From: a virus
Virus record (IMG/VR): IMGVR_UViG_3300021961_000332
Span: 1-33,759 of that record
Length of the DNA stretch: 33,759 nt
Reading direction: 5' to 3' (one strand)
The position numbers and the translations under genes are program-made. The notes under the pieces are model-generated. The model was not told the origin of the DNA and did no database searches. It was given only the letters and a program-made list of their open reading frames with translations. Below, one piece after another: positions 20,557 to 33,759 of the stretch (positions are counted from its first letter, which is position 1; each line of letters opens with the position of its first letter).

Positions 20557-21204
20557 TTACAAGTTTTGCAAAAACTGGTTAAATGCGGAAAGTTTCCTTT
20601 CCTCAAGTTGATTTTGCGCGGCTTGGTCAATACGACGCTTGATCTGTTCGATCTGCTCTTCATGGATGGAACCGTTATTCCAAATCCACTCTTTCCCTTC
20701 GTAGATTCCGTTAACGAATGCGTCGGGAGCAGAGGGATCTGCAACAATATCTGCTGCGGTTGCGAGCATAAAGTCATCACAGACGACCTTGCAACCATTG
20801 CTCTCTCTGATAGTACCAAGACCTCTGGAAGATACGCCCAGTCTTACACCCTCATCAAGCAGAGATTTTGCAATCTTGCCCATCGGGGTTTCCAGCAGAC
20901 GTGCCTTACCAACAAAGTTGGTACCTTCTTTCTTCAGGGAAGTGATGAGGTGTGAAGCGCGATCAAGGTTGATTGTTGGACCCTCGGGGTGACCGAGTTC
21001 GCCCAGCGCACGACCAGACTGAATATAGTCAGCATCGTACTTTGCAACTTCTCTTTCAAGAAGTCCAACAGGGTACATACGACCGTTACGGTTTTTGATA
21101 TCTCCCTGAAGGAATACACCCTCAATGAAATATTTTTTAGTACCGTTCTTGCCTTCGGTAATAACTACCTTGGCTTCTTCAATCTTCTCCGTGATCAGTT
21201 TCAT
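20557..21204 (-). CDS. 21: Prohead protease gp21
   Basis: This 215-residue serine protease matches T4 gp21 (212 aa). The catalytic His is in ELGHPEG (H72) and the nucleophile in LGVSSRGLG (S125 or S126), as in the S78-type prohead protease fold. It matures the head by cutting gp22, gp23, gp67 and internal proteins after (L/I)xE. The start at 21204 has GAGG upstream and begins MKLITEKIEEA; the longer frame upstream lies within gp67. It overlaps gp67 by 26 bases. Confidence 0.95.
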   Translation of the reverse strand: MKLITEKIEEAKVVITEGKNGTKKYFIEGVFLQGDIKNRNGRMYPVGLLEREVAKYDADYIQSGRALGELGHPEGPTINLDRASHLITSLKKEGTNFVGKARLLETPMGKIAKSLLDEGVRLGVSSRGLGTIRESNGCKVVCDDFMLATAADIVADPSAPDAFVNGIYEGKEWIWNNGSIHEEQIEQIKRRIDQAAQNQLEERKLSAFNQFLQNL

Positions 21205-21406
21205 CGTTTTCCTCTGAAGGTTGTTCTTCACCGTCTTCTTCTTCCTCTTCTTCCGAAGAGTTGAAGAACTGCTTTCCAACTTCATGCTTTTTCTGTTGGA
21301 TTGCTTCCAGTGCTTTATCGTGCATCGCTACATTCACCAGATCAGAAAGATCTTTCTGACCAGCGAACAATGCATTTACAATGTCAAGAGACGCGGGGGA
21401 TGCCAT
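21179..21406 (-). CDS. 67: Prohead core protein gp67
   Basis: This 75-residue protein starts MASPASLDIVNALFAGQKDL, the pattern of cyanophage gp67, and ends in a dense acidic run (SSEEEEEEDGEEQPSEEND). It lies between portal gp20 and protease gp21, as in T4 (gp67 is 80 aa). It is a prohead core component cleaved during maturation. The ATG at 21406 is the only reasonable start. Confidence 0.88.
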   Translation of the reverse strand: MASPASLDIVNALFAGQKDLSDLVNVAMHDKALEAIQQKKHEVGKQFFNSSEEEEEEDGEEQPSEENDETDHGED

Positions 21407-30776: not shown

Positions 30777-31151
30777 TCAGCAGTTCCACGCTCTAAGTGA
30801 CTTAGACAGACGATCATCACCTGTATTATTCTCAGGTTTCTGTCTCTTACGCATACCCTTCATTCTCGCACAAAAACTCTTTCTACGAGGGTTCCCAACT
30901 TTTTTTGAAGGTGCCTTAAGATCGCTTCCTGGGTTCTCGCGCTCATACGACTTCCGACCCTTTTCGTTGAGTCCTCCTTCTGAGTTTTGTCCATCCTTTT
31001 TAGTCCAATCTGCTCCTTCATCAATCGCATTCTCCTCTTTCATTTCCTTGTCTTGGCAAGGAACTTCAAGGCACTTGCCGCATTTCTTACACCAGCGAGT
31101 GCCTTCGGGGCAAGTAACCCCTTCACCAAAATATTGCTTGAAGGATTTCAT
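30777..31151 (-). CDS. DUF6321-like protein with capsid-targeting-like leader, 124 aa
   Basis: The N-terminus MKSFKQYFGEG resembles the capsid-targeting leader of T4 internal proteins (MKTYQEFIAEA type), ending in an xE that gp21 might cut. Next is a Cys cluster (CPEGTRWCKKCGKCLEVPC) that may bind zinc. The C-terminal part, with GRKSYERENPGSDLKAP and NPRRKSFCARMKGM, is the DUF6321-like region seen in many cyanophages. It is very basic at the end. The ATG overlaps the 46-residue gene as ATGA. Internal head protein is an inference. Confidence 0.75.
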   Translation of the reverse strand: MKSFKQYFGEGVTCPEGTRWCKKCGKCLEVPCQDKEMKEENAIDEGADWTKKDGQNSEGGLNEKGRKSYERENPGSDLKAPSKKVGNPRRKSFCARMKGMRKRQKPENNTGDDRLSKSLRAWNC

Positions 31152-31288
31152 TTCCTTTTCAGATTGGGATTCTTAGGACAGTTTGCCTCATGCTTTTCAA
31201 TCCAACTCACAGGGCGTTGATGACCACGAGGGGAAGTTACCTCACAATGGGCACACTTCCATGTGCCATTCTCAAGTTGCTCAGCCAT
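31148..31288 (-). CDS. Small zinc-finger protein, 46 aa
   Basis: The start MAEQLENGTWKCAHCEVTS at 31288 is preferred over a longer frame because it overlaps the 631-residue gene by only 8 bases. CAHC (12-15), a His in IEKHEANC and the final Cys37 fit a compact CCHC zinc finger. The tail is basic (PNLKRK). Possibly nucleic-acid binding. Confidence 0.7.
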   Translation of the reverse strand: MAEQLENGTWKCAHCEVTSPRGHQRPVSWIEKHEANCPKNPNLKRK

Positions 31289-33176
31289 AATGATACGCTC
31301 CTTTAGTTGTTTTCTTGGGTAGTTTACCACCTCGTACTTTCGTACCAGATGTTTCACCATATCCTTCGGGATGCTTGCCTGCCTTAGTCTTACCAATAGA
31401 GTCCGACTTAGACTTACTGCCCTTCTCAGTATAGTGCAGTTTTGCTGATTTGTCAGCATCTTTAGTAATCACGGATTCTTGCCCGTGCTTACGACCCATA
31501 CGACGCATCACCTTACCGAAACGACGCTTGGACATCTTCTCAGGCTTGGAAGTTTGGTATGAAACCTCACGACCAGTTTCGCCACTACCATACTTGTATT
31601 CACCAACACCTTTCTTGTGACCGATGCCGTGCTTCTTGAGATCTTTCTCAAGAGTCTTGCGACCCTCACGATTCTTCTTCTCATCATCGCCACGGTCAGC
31701 AGAGATGTGACCAGTGACCTGAGTCTTGGACTTTTGCATCATGCGACCAGTGCGGTTGCCTTCAGCAATAAACTCTTTGAAAGTGATAACCTCTTCTTTC
31801 TTCAGACCAACCTTACGGGCAATCTTACTAACAATACCTTCTTTCTTCCTCGCCCTAGCAGCGTCTAGACGCTTCTGAATCTCAGGAGAATACTTGGGTT
31901 TAGAGGAAGACGAAGACCTCTCAGATTGCTTACGCTTAGCATAATCCATGTAAGACTCGCCAGGTTTGGTAGTCTTGCTGTAGTCTTTCTTGGGTTTGGC
32001 TGCATCAGCACGGTCTTCACGAGCACGCTGGTTAGCACCAGGACCACCCAGTTTCTTATCCTTCTCGGGATCGGGATGCCAGAAGTCACCACGCTCAACG
32101 ATGGTCTCTTCTGTGTACTCAGAGCGATACTTACCACCAGTCTTCTTGTGGGTGTCAGCAAGTTCTGATGCTCTAGCATCAGCGTACTTCTTGCTCTTCA
32201 CAGGTTTACCAATCTTCTTCTCCTTCTTACCATCGGTAGAACCATAGACCTGATAAGGCATCTCAGCAACCAGATCAGGGTGGGGAGCATACAAGGGACC
32301 CTCGTAGTTACCAGCAAACGTAGACTCCTTCTTAAGTGCTGCACGCTTTGCTGCTGCTTTCTTGAGAAGTCTTTCCTTTGCTGCTTCCTGTTCTTTCTTG
32401 GGAATAGCAGTGACAGCACCAACCTTTTGATCTACATCGCCAGGAGCATAACCTTCACTCTTGGTTTTCTTCTTGGTGTCAATCAGTGCGCCTTCACCAT
32501 GCTTTGCACGGATAGATGCTTTCACAATATCAAGTGCAGACTTACCAGCATGTTGCTTCTGGTATGCAGTCTGACCACTAACACCCAACTCTTTATTGCT
32601 TAACTTCCTTGCTGGCTTGTAGTTGGAATAACGGGTGTTGCCATCAACACCACCACGCTCCATGCGGCGGTCCTTCATACGATCGTAATCTTCTTCGTTA
32701 ATCATTGATTCACCCATTGCCTTTTGCTTACGAATCTTCTTAGGATTCTTAGTCTTATCTGCTGAGTAATCACTATCTTCAGCATCAGGATCCATAGCAC
32801 TACGCTTTCTTGTGCTTCTTTCTTCATCATCCATCTTTGCACGACCACTCTTTGCTTCATCGGGAGAATAGGTCTGACCACTGTTGTACCATTCTTTACC
32901 AACGTGCCCTCTCTTCTTAGCATCGGTGGAAGCTTCTTTACGCTTATTCTTCCTACGATTTGCTTTGAAGTCTTTGAGGGTCATTCCCTCTTCGAGATCA
33001 TATTCTTCCTTTTTCATAGGTAGACCTTTGTGTTTGGTGGAGGCGAAGTCTTTGGCGTCTTTCTTTTTCATGCTGGCAGCAACTTTGGCAACCTCAGGCG
33101 ACGCCGCTCCTTCACCCTTTTGAGCAGCTCGGACCATACCCATGAAACGTTGTTGTTTGATAGATTTGGCAGGCAT
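31281..33176 (-). CDS. Large Lys-rich modular protein with N-terminal DUF3008-like motif, 631 aa
   Basis: The first residues MPAKSIKQQRFMGMVRAAQKG match the DUF3008-type start. The rest is highly charged, low-complexity and modular. Four (L/I)xE sequences, the type cut by prohead protease, fall at apparent module junctions: LEE 61-63, INE 159-161, IVE 359-361 and IAE 470-472. Upstream of the last is ITFKEFIAEG, close to the T4 capsid-targeting consensus. I infer a virion-internal protein or polyprotein processed by gp21. Parts resemble separate small cyanophage proteins. No enzyme motif is seen. Confidence 0.8.
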   Translation of the reverse strand: MPAKSIKQQRFMGMVRAAQKGEGAASPEVAKVAASMKKKDAKDFASTKHKGLPMKKEEYDLEEGMTLKDFKANRRKNKRKEASTDAKKRGHVGKEWYNSGQTYSPDEAKSGRAKMDDEERSTRKRSAMDPDAEDSDYSADKTKNPKKIRKQKAMGESMINEEDYDRMKDRRMERGGVDGNTRYSNYKPARKLSNKELGVSGQTAYQKQHAGKSALDIVKASIRAKHGEGALIDTKKKTKSEGYAPGDVDQKVGAVTAIPKKEQEAAKERLLKKAAAKRAALKKESTFAGNYEGPLYAPHPDLVAEMPYQVYGSTDGKKEKKIGKPVKSKKYADARASELADTHKKTGGKYRSEYTEETIVERGDFWHPDPEKDKKLGGPGANQRAREDRADAAKPKKDYSKTTKPGESYMDYAKRKQSERSSSSSKPKYSPEIQKRLDAARARKKEGIVSKIARKVGLKKEEVITFKEFIAEGNRTGRMMQKSKTQVTGHISADRGDDEKKNREGRKTLEKDLKKHGIGHKKGVGEYKYGSGETGREVSYQTSKPEKMSKRRFGKVMRRMGRKHGQESVITKDADKSAKLHYTEKGSKSKSDSIGKTKAGKHPEGYGETSGTKVRGGKLPKKTTKGAYHYG

Positions 33177-33180
33177 GTCA

Positions 33181-33726
33181 TCAACCCGATACTTGTACTT
33201 CGTCGATATACATGGTCATACCGTTGTTGGTATCACCCATTGCCTGAATCTTGATGCTATTGCACAGTTGTGCAGATCCAGTGAATGCAGCACTCGCAGA
33301 CTGATCAGAAGTGATTGTGATAGTGGTATCAGTTACAGCAGTAACCTCAACGTGATTCACGTTGTAAGCACCAACAGCAGCACCAGTGATAGTAACGTAA
33401 TCACCAACCACAAAGCTGTGAGCAGGAGTGCCACCACCACCAACTGTCAACACACAAGGTGATGCAGCAGTTGCAGCAATAATGTTTGCTCTCTTGGGTC
33501 TGGAAAGATTGAATAACTCAGCACCATTAACAGCAGTGTGAACCACCAGAGGATCAGATGTCACATCAGGATCACCACCCCATGAAAAATGGTTGCTATG
33601 TGTGTCTCCATTGATCAGACGATAAATGCCAGTTTTGACAATGTGACCCGTAGTTGTTTGTGGGGTTGCTGCATTGTCTGTGAGAATCCCCAAAGACTGC
33701 ACAGGTGTTACGACGTTAGATGCCAT
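33181..33726 (-). CDS. Virion-like beta-rich protein, 181 aa
   Basis: The protein is rich in Thr, Val, Ala and Gly with short alternating strands. The central part (VGDYVTITGAAVGAYNVNHVEV followed by AVTDTTITIT) resembles the small beta domain often found in phage structural proteins. The N-terminus TPVQSLGILTDNA and end MYIDEVQVSG fit a decoration or tail protein. AGGAG is upstream of the ATG, and a late-promoter-like box lies 26 bases before it. Confidence 0.8.
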   Translation of the reverse strand: MASNVVTPVQSLGILTDNAATPQTTTGHIVKTGIYRLINGDTHSNHFSWGGDPDVTSDPLVVHTAVNGAELFNLSRPKRANIIAATAASPCVLTVGGGGTPAHSFVVGDYVTITGAAVGAYNVNHVEVTAVTDTTITITSDQSASAAFTGSAQLCNSIKIQAMGDTNNGMTMYIDEVQVSG

Positions 33727-33751: not shown

Positions 33752-33759
33752 TATTTATC
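33752..33759 (-). promoter_or_regulatory. Late-promoter-like box GATAAATA at window edge
   Basis: The last eight bases read GATAAATA on the minus strand, matching NATAAATA, 26 bases before the ATG of the 181-residue virion-like gene. Being cut by the window edge, its upstream context cannot be examined. Confidence 0.5.

Follow-up and report, generated by a model that had tools for sequence, protein, structure and literature searches.

The predicted precursor gene and its surroundings

The window, the whole 33,759-nucleotide stretch of viral DNA analysed here, carries on its minus strand a 631-residue open reading frame, which the initial annotation had placed at 31281-33176; this assignment held. 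The main features of the locus are as follows, with a slash marking each border or candidate cut point.

31281..33176, minus strand: whole precursor gene, 631 aa, with ATG at 33176 and stop at 31281; matches phrog_26015 over its full length (E 4e-193)
33181..33726, minus strand: DUF7243 gene (Pfam), separated by a 4-nt gap from the precursor gene, upstream of which it lies; gene order shared with S-WAM1, among others
33752..33758, minus strand: ATAAATA, resembling a T4-type late promoter, upstream of both the DUF7243 gene and the precursor gene, 26 bases from the DUF7243 start
20557..21285, minus strand: prohead protease gp21, which presumably does the processing; matches phrog_207, head maturation protease (E 2e-85)
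30777..31151, minus strand: second leader-bearing gene, the next such gene downstream of the precursor; starts MKSFKQYFGE/G, followed by a Cys-rich segment, IDE/G and DUF6321

The encoded chain has a mass of ~70 kDa, a pI of 9.9 and a Lys plus Arg content of 25%, and the pI of the individual modules is 9.6-10.2 throughout. The window carries a T4-like set of head and tail genes (gp21 protease, gp22 scaffold, gp23, portal, sheath and terminase), of which those not backed by a family search are named provisionally. The nearest named relatives of the virus are the cyanophages S-WAM1, S-SZBM1, P-RSM6 and P-TIM40, and each of these has the homologous gene flanked by those for the small and the large terminase. 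This gp16-gp17 interval is a known variable region in cyanophages (PMC3037559). The S-WAM1 homologue sits directly behind a DUF7243-like gene, as in the window. The ATAAATA sequence occurs four times in the window versus a chance mean of 2.4, and all four copies are found just upstream of minus-strand genes. A PADLOC search gave no match.

The gene at 30777-31151 is likely a second, smaller precursor, and its DUF6321 relative in S-CREM2, gp137, is a virion protein. The DUF6321 border was considered as a gp21 site and dropped, as xE/G precedes it and LxE is not regular there. Separately, a 46-residue Cys/His protein (MAEQLENGTWKCAHCEV...) is encoded at 31148-31288 on the minus strand, overlapping the end of the precursor gene, and it is conserved beside the precursor homologue in S-WAM1 and S-SZBM1.

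Modules, borders and the internal leader

The precursor divides into five modules and one internal leader, with predicted gp21 sites at four borders.

32988..33176, minus strand: module 1 (residues 1-63), DUF3008-like (Pfam, below cut-off), ends DLEE/G; stand-alone as S-SCSM1_93
32988..32996, minus strand: predicted gp21 site 1, LEE (residues 61-63); three sequences only
32694..32987, minus strand: module 2 (residues 64-161), starts GMTLKDFKANRR..., ends INE/E; relative L071 has an N-terminal leader
32694..32702, minus strand: predicted gp21 site 2, INE (residues 159-161), P1' Glu; conserved at the border
32094..32693, minus strand: module 3 (residues 162-361), EDYDRMKDRR..., composite, ends IVE/R; relatives L041 and L046 have an N-terminal leader
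32094..32102, minus strand: predicted gp21 site 3, IVE (residues 359-361), P1' Arg; conserved at the border
31791..32093, minus strand: module 4 (residues 362-462), starts RGDFWHPDPEKD...; relatives L221 and L247 have a leader
31761..31790, minus strand: internal capsid-targeting-like leader VITFKEFIAE (residues 463-472), resembling the T4 IpII leader; conserved
31761..31769, minus strand: predicted gp21 site 4, IAE (residues 470-472), P1' Gly; conserved at the border
31284..31760, minus strand: module 5 (residues 473-631), SAM lyase family domain (PF23780, residues 491-599); candidate active-site residues Tyr527 and Glu537

The start of the chain had been called DUF3008-like. This description is fair as a resemblance and holds only in part, since module 1 scores 11.3 bits against DUF3008 (PF11450), below the Pfam cut-off of 24; the S-SZBM1 homologue scores higher, at 17.5 bits. 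An AlphaFold model of the full-length precursor (pTM 0.18, pLDDT 50) contains no reliable folds beyond short helices, and most of the chain is likely flexible, as predicted by the model.

Module order and content are mosaic among the relatives, for which 19 arrangements were listed. Module 1 occurs alone in S-SCSM1 (S-SCSM1_93), where it is marked as a virion protein, and modules 2-5 are each found behind an N-terminal leader in some relative. The leader reads MNTFQEFITVTE/GLDMKTFKANRR before module 2 (L071), MKSFKYLSEE/GYDRMRD before module 3 (L041, L046) and MKTYKEFIRE/AGDWWHPDP (L221) or MKTFQEFMIE/AGDWWHPD (L247) before module 4. L221 is a two-module version, MKTYKEFIRE/AGDWWHPDP...DLSE/TSLTRV.... 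A search for the modules as genes of their own, proposed in the initial annotation, is thus favorable: in relatives they occur singly or follow a leader located at the N-terminus itself. As a side observation, the stand-alone module 1 protein of S-SCSM1 (L254, 11627-11836) has a C-terminal end, KRTFKEFLEYIE, that is itself a leader-like peptide.

The signature for gp21 cleavage is L/I-X-E (PMC9026906). The (L/I)xE sequences noted earlier at residues 61-63, 159-161, 359-361 and 470-472, the last within ITFKEFIAEG, are present, but their count alone is ordinary: four versus a shuffle mean of 3.1, with at least four in 38% of shuffles of the same protein. Because there is no excess over shuffles, the number of triplets was dropped as evidence, and conservation at the borders counts instead. 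Such conservation in homologues had been named as a check, and the outcome is favorable. The pattern [LIMV]xE is found in 19/19 distinct contexts at site 2 (before the YDRMKD module, in an LxE/E frame), in 27/27 at site 3 (before the GDFWHPDP module) and in 37/37 at site 4, where P3 is Leu, Ile or Met and P1 is Glu in every case. At sites 2-4 the hydrophobic P3 and the P1 Glu are kept while P2 is variable (entropy 2.7 bits at site 4). A site of this kind, LxE/A, also occurs in gp23 at the expected maturation place (ILHE/AAPT in the window, LLTE/APT in S-CREM2 and FLAE/AP in S-SCSM1). Cutting of the precursor by gp21 after residues 63, 161, 361 and 472 is predicted from these data; cleavage itself is inferred, not shown.

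Site 4 closes a peptide resembling the leader of T4 internal proteins, the capsid-targeting sequence (CTS). The T4 IpII signal peptide MKTYQEFIAE/A is annotated as residues -10 to -1 (record X04567), and work on T4 IPIII ties leader positions 4 and 7 to targeting and positions 8 and 10 to processing (PMC9026906). VITFKEFIAE agrees with the IpII leader at these four critical positions, so the likeness claimed earlier held there; these positions are conserved in relatives, and those in between vary. The context [ST][FY]xx[FY][ILM]xE/G surrounds site 4 in nearly all relatives, with an aromatic residue at P7 in 33/37 and at P4 in 33/37 distinct sequences. The motif [FY]xx[FY][ILM]xE is rare: the window proteins, 10,375 aa in total, contain it twice, including site 4. 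A DNA pattern representing the leader matched 15 times in 11 genomes, and a reversed control gave none. For the LxE site directly after the leader, the sequence is present and conserved, and cleavage is inferred.

T4 leaders are described at N-termini. The window precursor has no N-terminal leader; its leader is internal, and for this reason we do not file it as a standard T4-type internal head protein, only as one working like it. The same peptide is truly N-terminal in L092 and L093 (MKTFSQFMAE/GNPTARM...), and a more distant branch also carries N-terminal leaders (MKSFKEFIQE/SSL... and MKTYKEFMQE/SSM...).

Leaders of this kind were also seen on other genes. The cyanophage cytidylyltransferase/NMNAT genes (L262-L272, S-CREM2 gp154, S-SCSM1_91) all begin with one (MKKFSAFLTE/A, MRFRQFIIE/A); it is present in 11/11 genomes examined, and such proteins were found in four cyanophage virion studies. 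The leader would account for their repeated appearance in virion proteomes. Two S-CREM2 virion proteins, gp12 (Cas9/HNH-like) and gp14 (APH-like kinase), encoded at L011 7704-10313 and 10579-12846, carry RFASFMAE/A and KRFDAFLTE. A big family of small leader-bearing SAM-lyase-like proteins (L174-L253; 80 kept of 349 confirmed relatives in one scan) extends in viral contigs more widely than the polyprotein-carrying phages.

The SAM-lyase-family module and virion evidence in relatives

Residues 491-599 match the SAM lyase family PF23780 with 30.8-33.4 bits (cut-off 28). The family matches 55/55 aligned relatives (E <= 0.01, best 8e-22), and T3 SAMase scores 143 bits against the same model. The DUF3293 and PGA2 families also matched weakly in Pfam and were set aside, as PF23780 was stronger throughout. 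A PDB sequence search with the module, alone and as profiles, returned only chance matches and was uninformative, so a fold comparison was needed. The AlphaFold model of module 5 is of modest confidence (pLDDT 60, pTM 0.59), and its strand and helix order, beta-alpha-beta-beta-alpha-beta, is that of the ferredoxin-like fold of known SAM lyases. The best Foldseek matches in the PDB are 6zm9 and 6znb (phage SAM lyase), followed by 7ock (T3 SAMase with MAT), at E 1.5e-3. An hhalign comparison of the module 5 profile with T3 SAMase alone is collinear and weak (E 0.08). The T3 and Svi3-3 enzymes have a catalytic Glu (Svi3-3 E69, T3 E68) with a key Tyr nearby (PMC7877911). Tyr527 and Glu537 of the module are conserved and are candidates for these residues; as loop length varies, Glu537 comes to lie at most one residue away from T3 E68. 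By profile and fold, module 5 is a SAM-lyase-family domain; SAM-degrading activity is inferred.

One alternative is that the chain is a DNA-condensing internal protein, in which basic modules neutralise packaged DNA and the SAM-lyase fold has been co-opted with no catalytic role. The Lys and Arg content and the basic pI of all modules support this idea. However, the core of module 5 is strongly conserved, and its Glu and Tyr lie within one residue of the key places in T3 and Svi3-3 (PMC7877911), and we consider this alternative unlikely.

Whether such proteins reach the virion, a further check proposed earlier, was assessed through relatives. S-CREM2 gp6 consists of the leader MKDFDSFLEE followed by a SAM lyase domain, and 19 unique peptides of it were recovered from purified virions. 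When the polyprotein and module genes of nine cyanophages and the window protein were compared with S-CREM2, the modules matched gp6, gp137 and gp160, each of which is a virion protein. Of the 219 S-CREM2 genes, five have the leader motif, and four of these five are among the 52 virion proteins (p = 0.012); with a relaxed motif the count is 7/10 (p = 0.002). In S-SCSM1, _93 (the stand-alone module 1), _29 (a polyprotein in the gp16-gp17 interval) and _91 (the leader-bearing NMNAT) are marked as virion proteins. Strict leader genes are in virions in 1/2 cases for S-SCSM1 and 0/2 for S-SZBM1, so the enrichment rests on S-CREM2. S-SZBM1_194, a full-length homologue of 707 aa and the closest with a virion proteome, is missing from that phage's 30-protein virion list, as are its leader-bearing neighbors _192 and _191; its neighbors _195 and _190 are on it. 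The window precursor would yield 30 tryptic peptides of usable size. Virion proteomes from CsCl preparations may include contaminants.

In a separate observation, two virion proteins, S-SCSM1_97 (L254, 13122-13307) and S-CREM2 gp160, carry a duplicate of the major capsid protein's mature N-terminal region (GGFTGSSAAEGPTAGYDPLM). Mimicry of the capsid for packaging is one possible explanation.

These data bear on two further alternatives. The chain could be a core or scaffold component, built into the prohead core and cut by gp21 mainly for removal, like T4 gp67, gp68 and gp22, with no role in the host. Core proteins are also cut at (L/I)xE (PMC9026906), most of the chain is modeled with low confidence (pLDDT 50) and is probably flexible, and removal fits the absence from the S-SZBM1 virion list. 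Against this, a conserved C-terminal enzyme-family domain is unexpected in a scaffold, relatives such as S-CREM2 gp6 remain in mature virions, where many of their peptides are detected, and the pI of 9.9 is like that of the basic T4 internal proteins. We rate a core or scaffold role as improbable.

Alternatively, the protein could be an intracellular SAM lyase, made and acting in the infected cell, with its leader and (L/I)xE sites inherited and unused. T3 SAMase works in this way, having no leader and being expressed ahead of all other viral proteins (PMC8406200), and S-SZBM1_194 is missing from virions. However, the window gene lies in the late head and packaging region behind a late-promoter-like site, which would be too late for protecting the incoming genome. 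The leader is conserved only at functional positions, and S-CREM2 gp6 was detected in virions. This explanation also appears unlikely.

Proposed mechanism and relation to known systems

The reading we favor, and consider likely, is that the chain is a precursor of the T4 internal-protein type, which gp21 cuts and which delivers a SAM lyase and basic peptides. The architecture, the family and fold of the SAM lyase module, the conserved leader and sites, the mosaic modules and the virion association of relatives are shown computationally; packaging, cleavage, ejection, activity and the defence target are inferred. During late infection, one or more capsid-targeting-like leaders, of which VITFKEFIAE at residues 463-472 is the clearest, would draw the basic 70-kDa chain into the prohead core. 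In the prohead, gp21 would cut after (L/I)xE to give about four or five small basic products. These would stay inside the head alongside the packaged DNA and pass with it into the cyanobacterium. The SAM lyase (residues 473-631) would then destroy SAM or a SAM-derived signal before phage gene expression, and loss of SAM would blunt SAM-dependent defences, e.g., restriction-modification. The first of these steps rest on T4 precedent and conservation. For precursors with module 1 in front, it is possible that the internal leader suffices or that module 1 itself provides targeting. The host system hit by SAM loss is inferred, restriction-modification being suggested by analogy with T3; the type III CRISPR signal SAM-AMP has featured in work on some phage SAM lyases (PMC10600005, PMC12255297).

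Several points weigh against this favored reading. S-SZBM1_194 was undetected, the window chain lacks an N-terminal leader, and P1' is Arg at site 3 and Glu at site 2, not Ala or Gly as elsewhere. In addition, only three sequences support site 1, confidence in the fold model is modest, and the proteomes may contain contaminants. The proposal in the initial annotation that several basic peptides are packaged as one precursor and delivered to the host is supported, with cleavage, ejection and the presence of this exact protein in virions remaining inferred. The effector-cargo polyprotein that it envisaged is likewise supported; the likely identity of the cargo, the SAM lyase at residues 491-599, had been missed.

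The precursor resembles T4 IPI, IPII and IPIII in its 10-residue leader, with aromatics at positions 4 and 7, Ile, Leu or Met at 8 and Glu at 10, in its basic cargo and in the predicted LxE cut. Among the T4 proteins, IPI counteracts restriction and is packaged in the head (PMC9026906). Unlike the T4 internal proteins, the window chain has an internal leader and several modules, and its SAM lyase cargo is unrelated to IPI. S-CREM2 gp6, named "S-adenosyl-L-methionine hydrolase (virion protein)", shares the combination of a CTS-like leader and a SAM lyase domain (33% identity over 183 aligned positions, E 6e-10), but it is a single-cargo protein with an N-terminal leader and a different C-terminal part; the section on virion-associated proteins in the S-CREM2 paper mentions no targeting leader. 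T3 gene 0.3 SAMase and Svi3-3 are the best fold matches, T3 SAMase being in the same Pfam family. Both are free, unfused enzymes made in the cell, and the T3 enzyme lacks a capsid-targeting leader, whereas the window module is part of a fusion.

The polyvalent proteins (P1 DarA, DdrB and DarB) are the closest concept: multidomain chains delivered with DNA, with anti-restriction functions and proteolytic processing into units (Iyer et al. 2017, PMC5512222). They often carry their own peptidase domain, whereas a separate prohead protease is predicted to act on the window chain, and PMC5512222 mentions no SAM lyase. Set against the features of polyvalent proteins, the window chain is a mosaic with shuffled orders, has only one module with an assigned function and has no peptidase domain of its own (Pfam). 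A SAM lyase in a cyanophage virion (S-CREM2) and CTS-driven cargo in T4 were also already known. In the open-access literature searched, nothing was found that joins a virion SAM lyase with CTS cargo or describes a gp21-cut effector polyprotein.

A bolder reading, toward which the evidence tilts only slightly, is that marine T4-like phages make an injected-effector polyprotein of shuffled cargo modules, including a ready-made SAM lyase. Each module would be preceded by a gp21 site and some by a capsid-targeting leader; the modules would be packaged as one chain and separated in the prohead. Delivered with the DNA, the SAM lyase would act as soon as infection begins, depleting SAM or cleaving alarm signals derived from it.

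Studies of cyanophage virions have repeatedly reported enzymes such as SAM hydrolase, NMNAT/cytidylyltransferase and kinases, offering no rule for their packaging and not excluding contamination (PMC10665884, PMC9602691). A CTS-like leader on such enzyme genes would supply one rule predicting cargo from sequence. The gp16-gp17 interval can then be seen as a probable cassette of cargo for delivery. If the particle brings in its own SAM lyase, the enzyme would work ahead of gene expression, and this fits an anti-restriction role better than a late-expressed free enzyme does.
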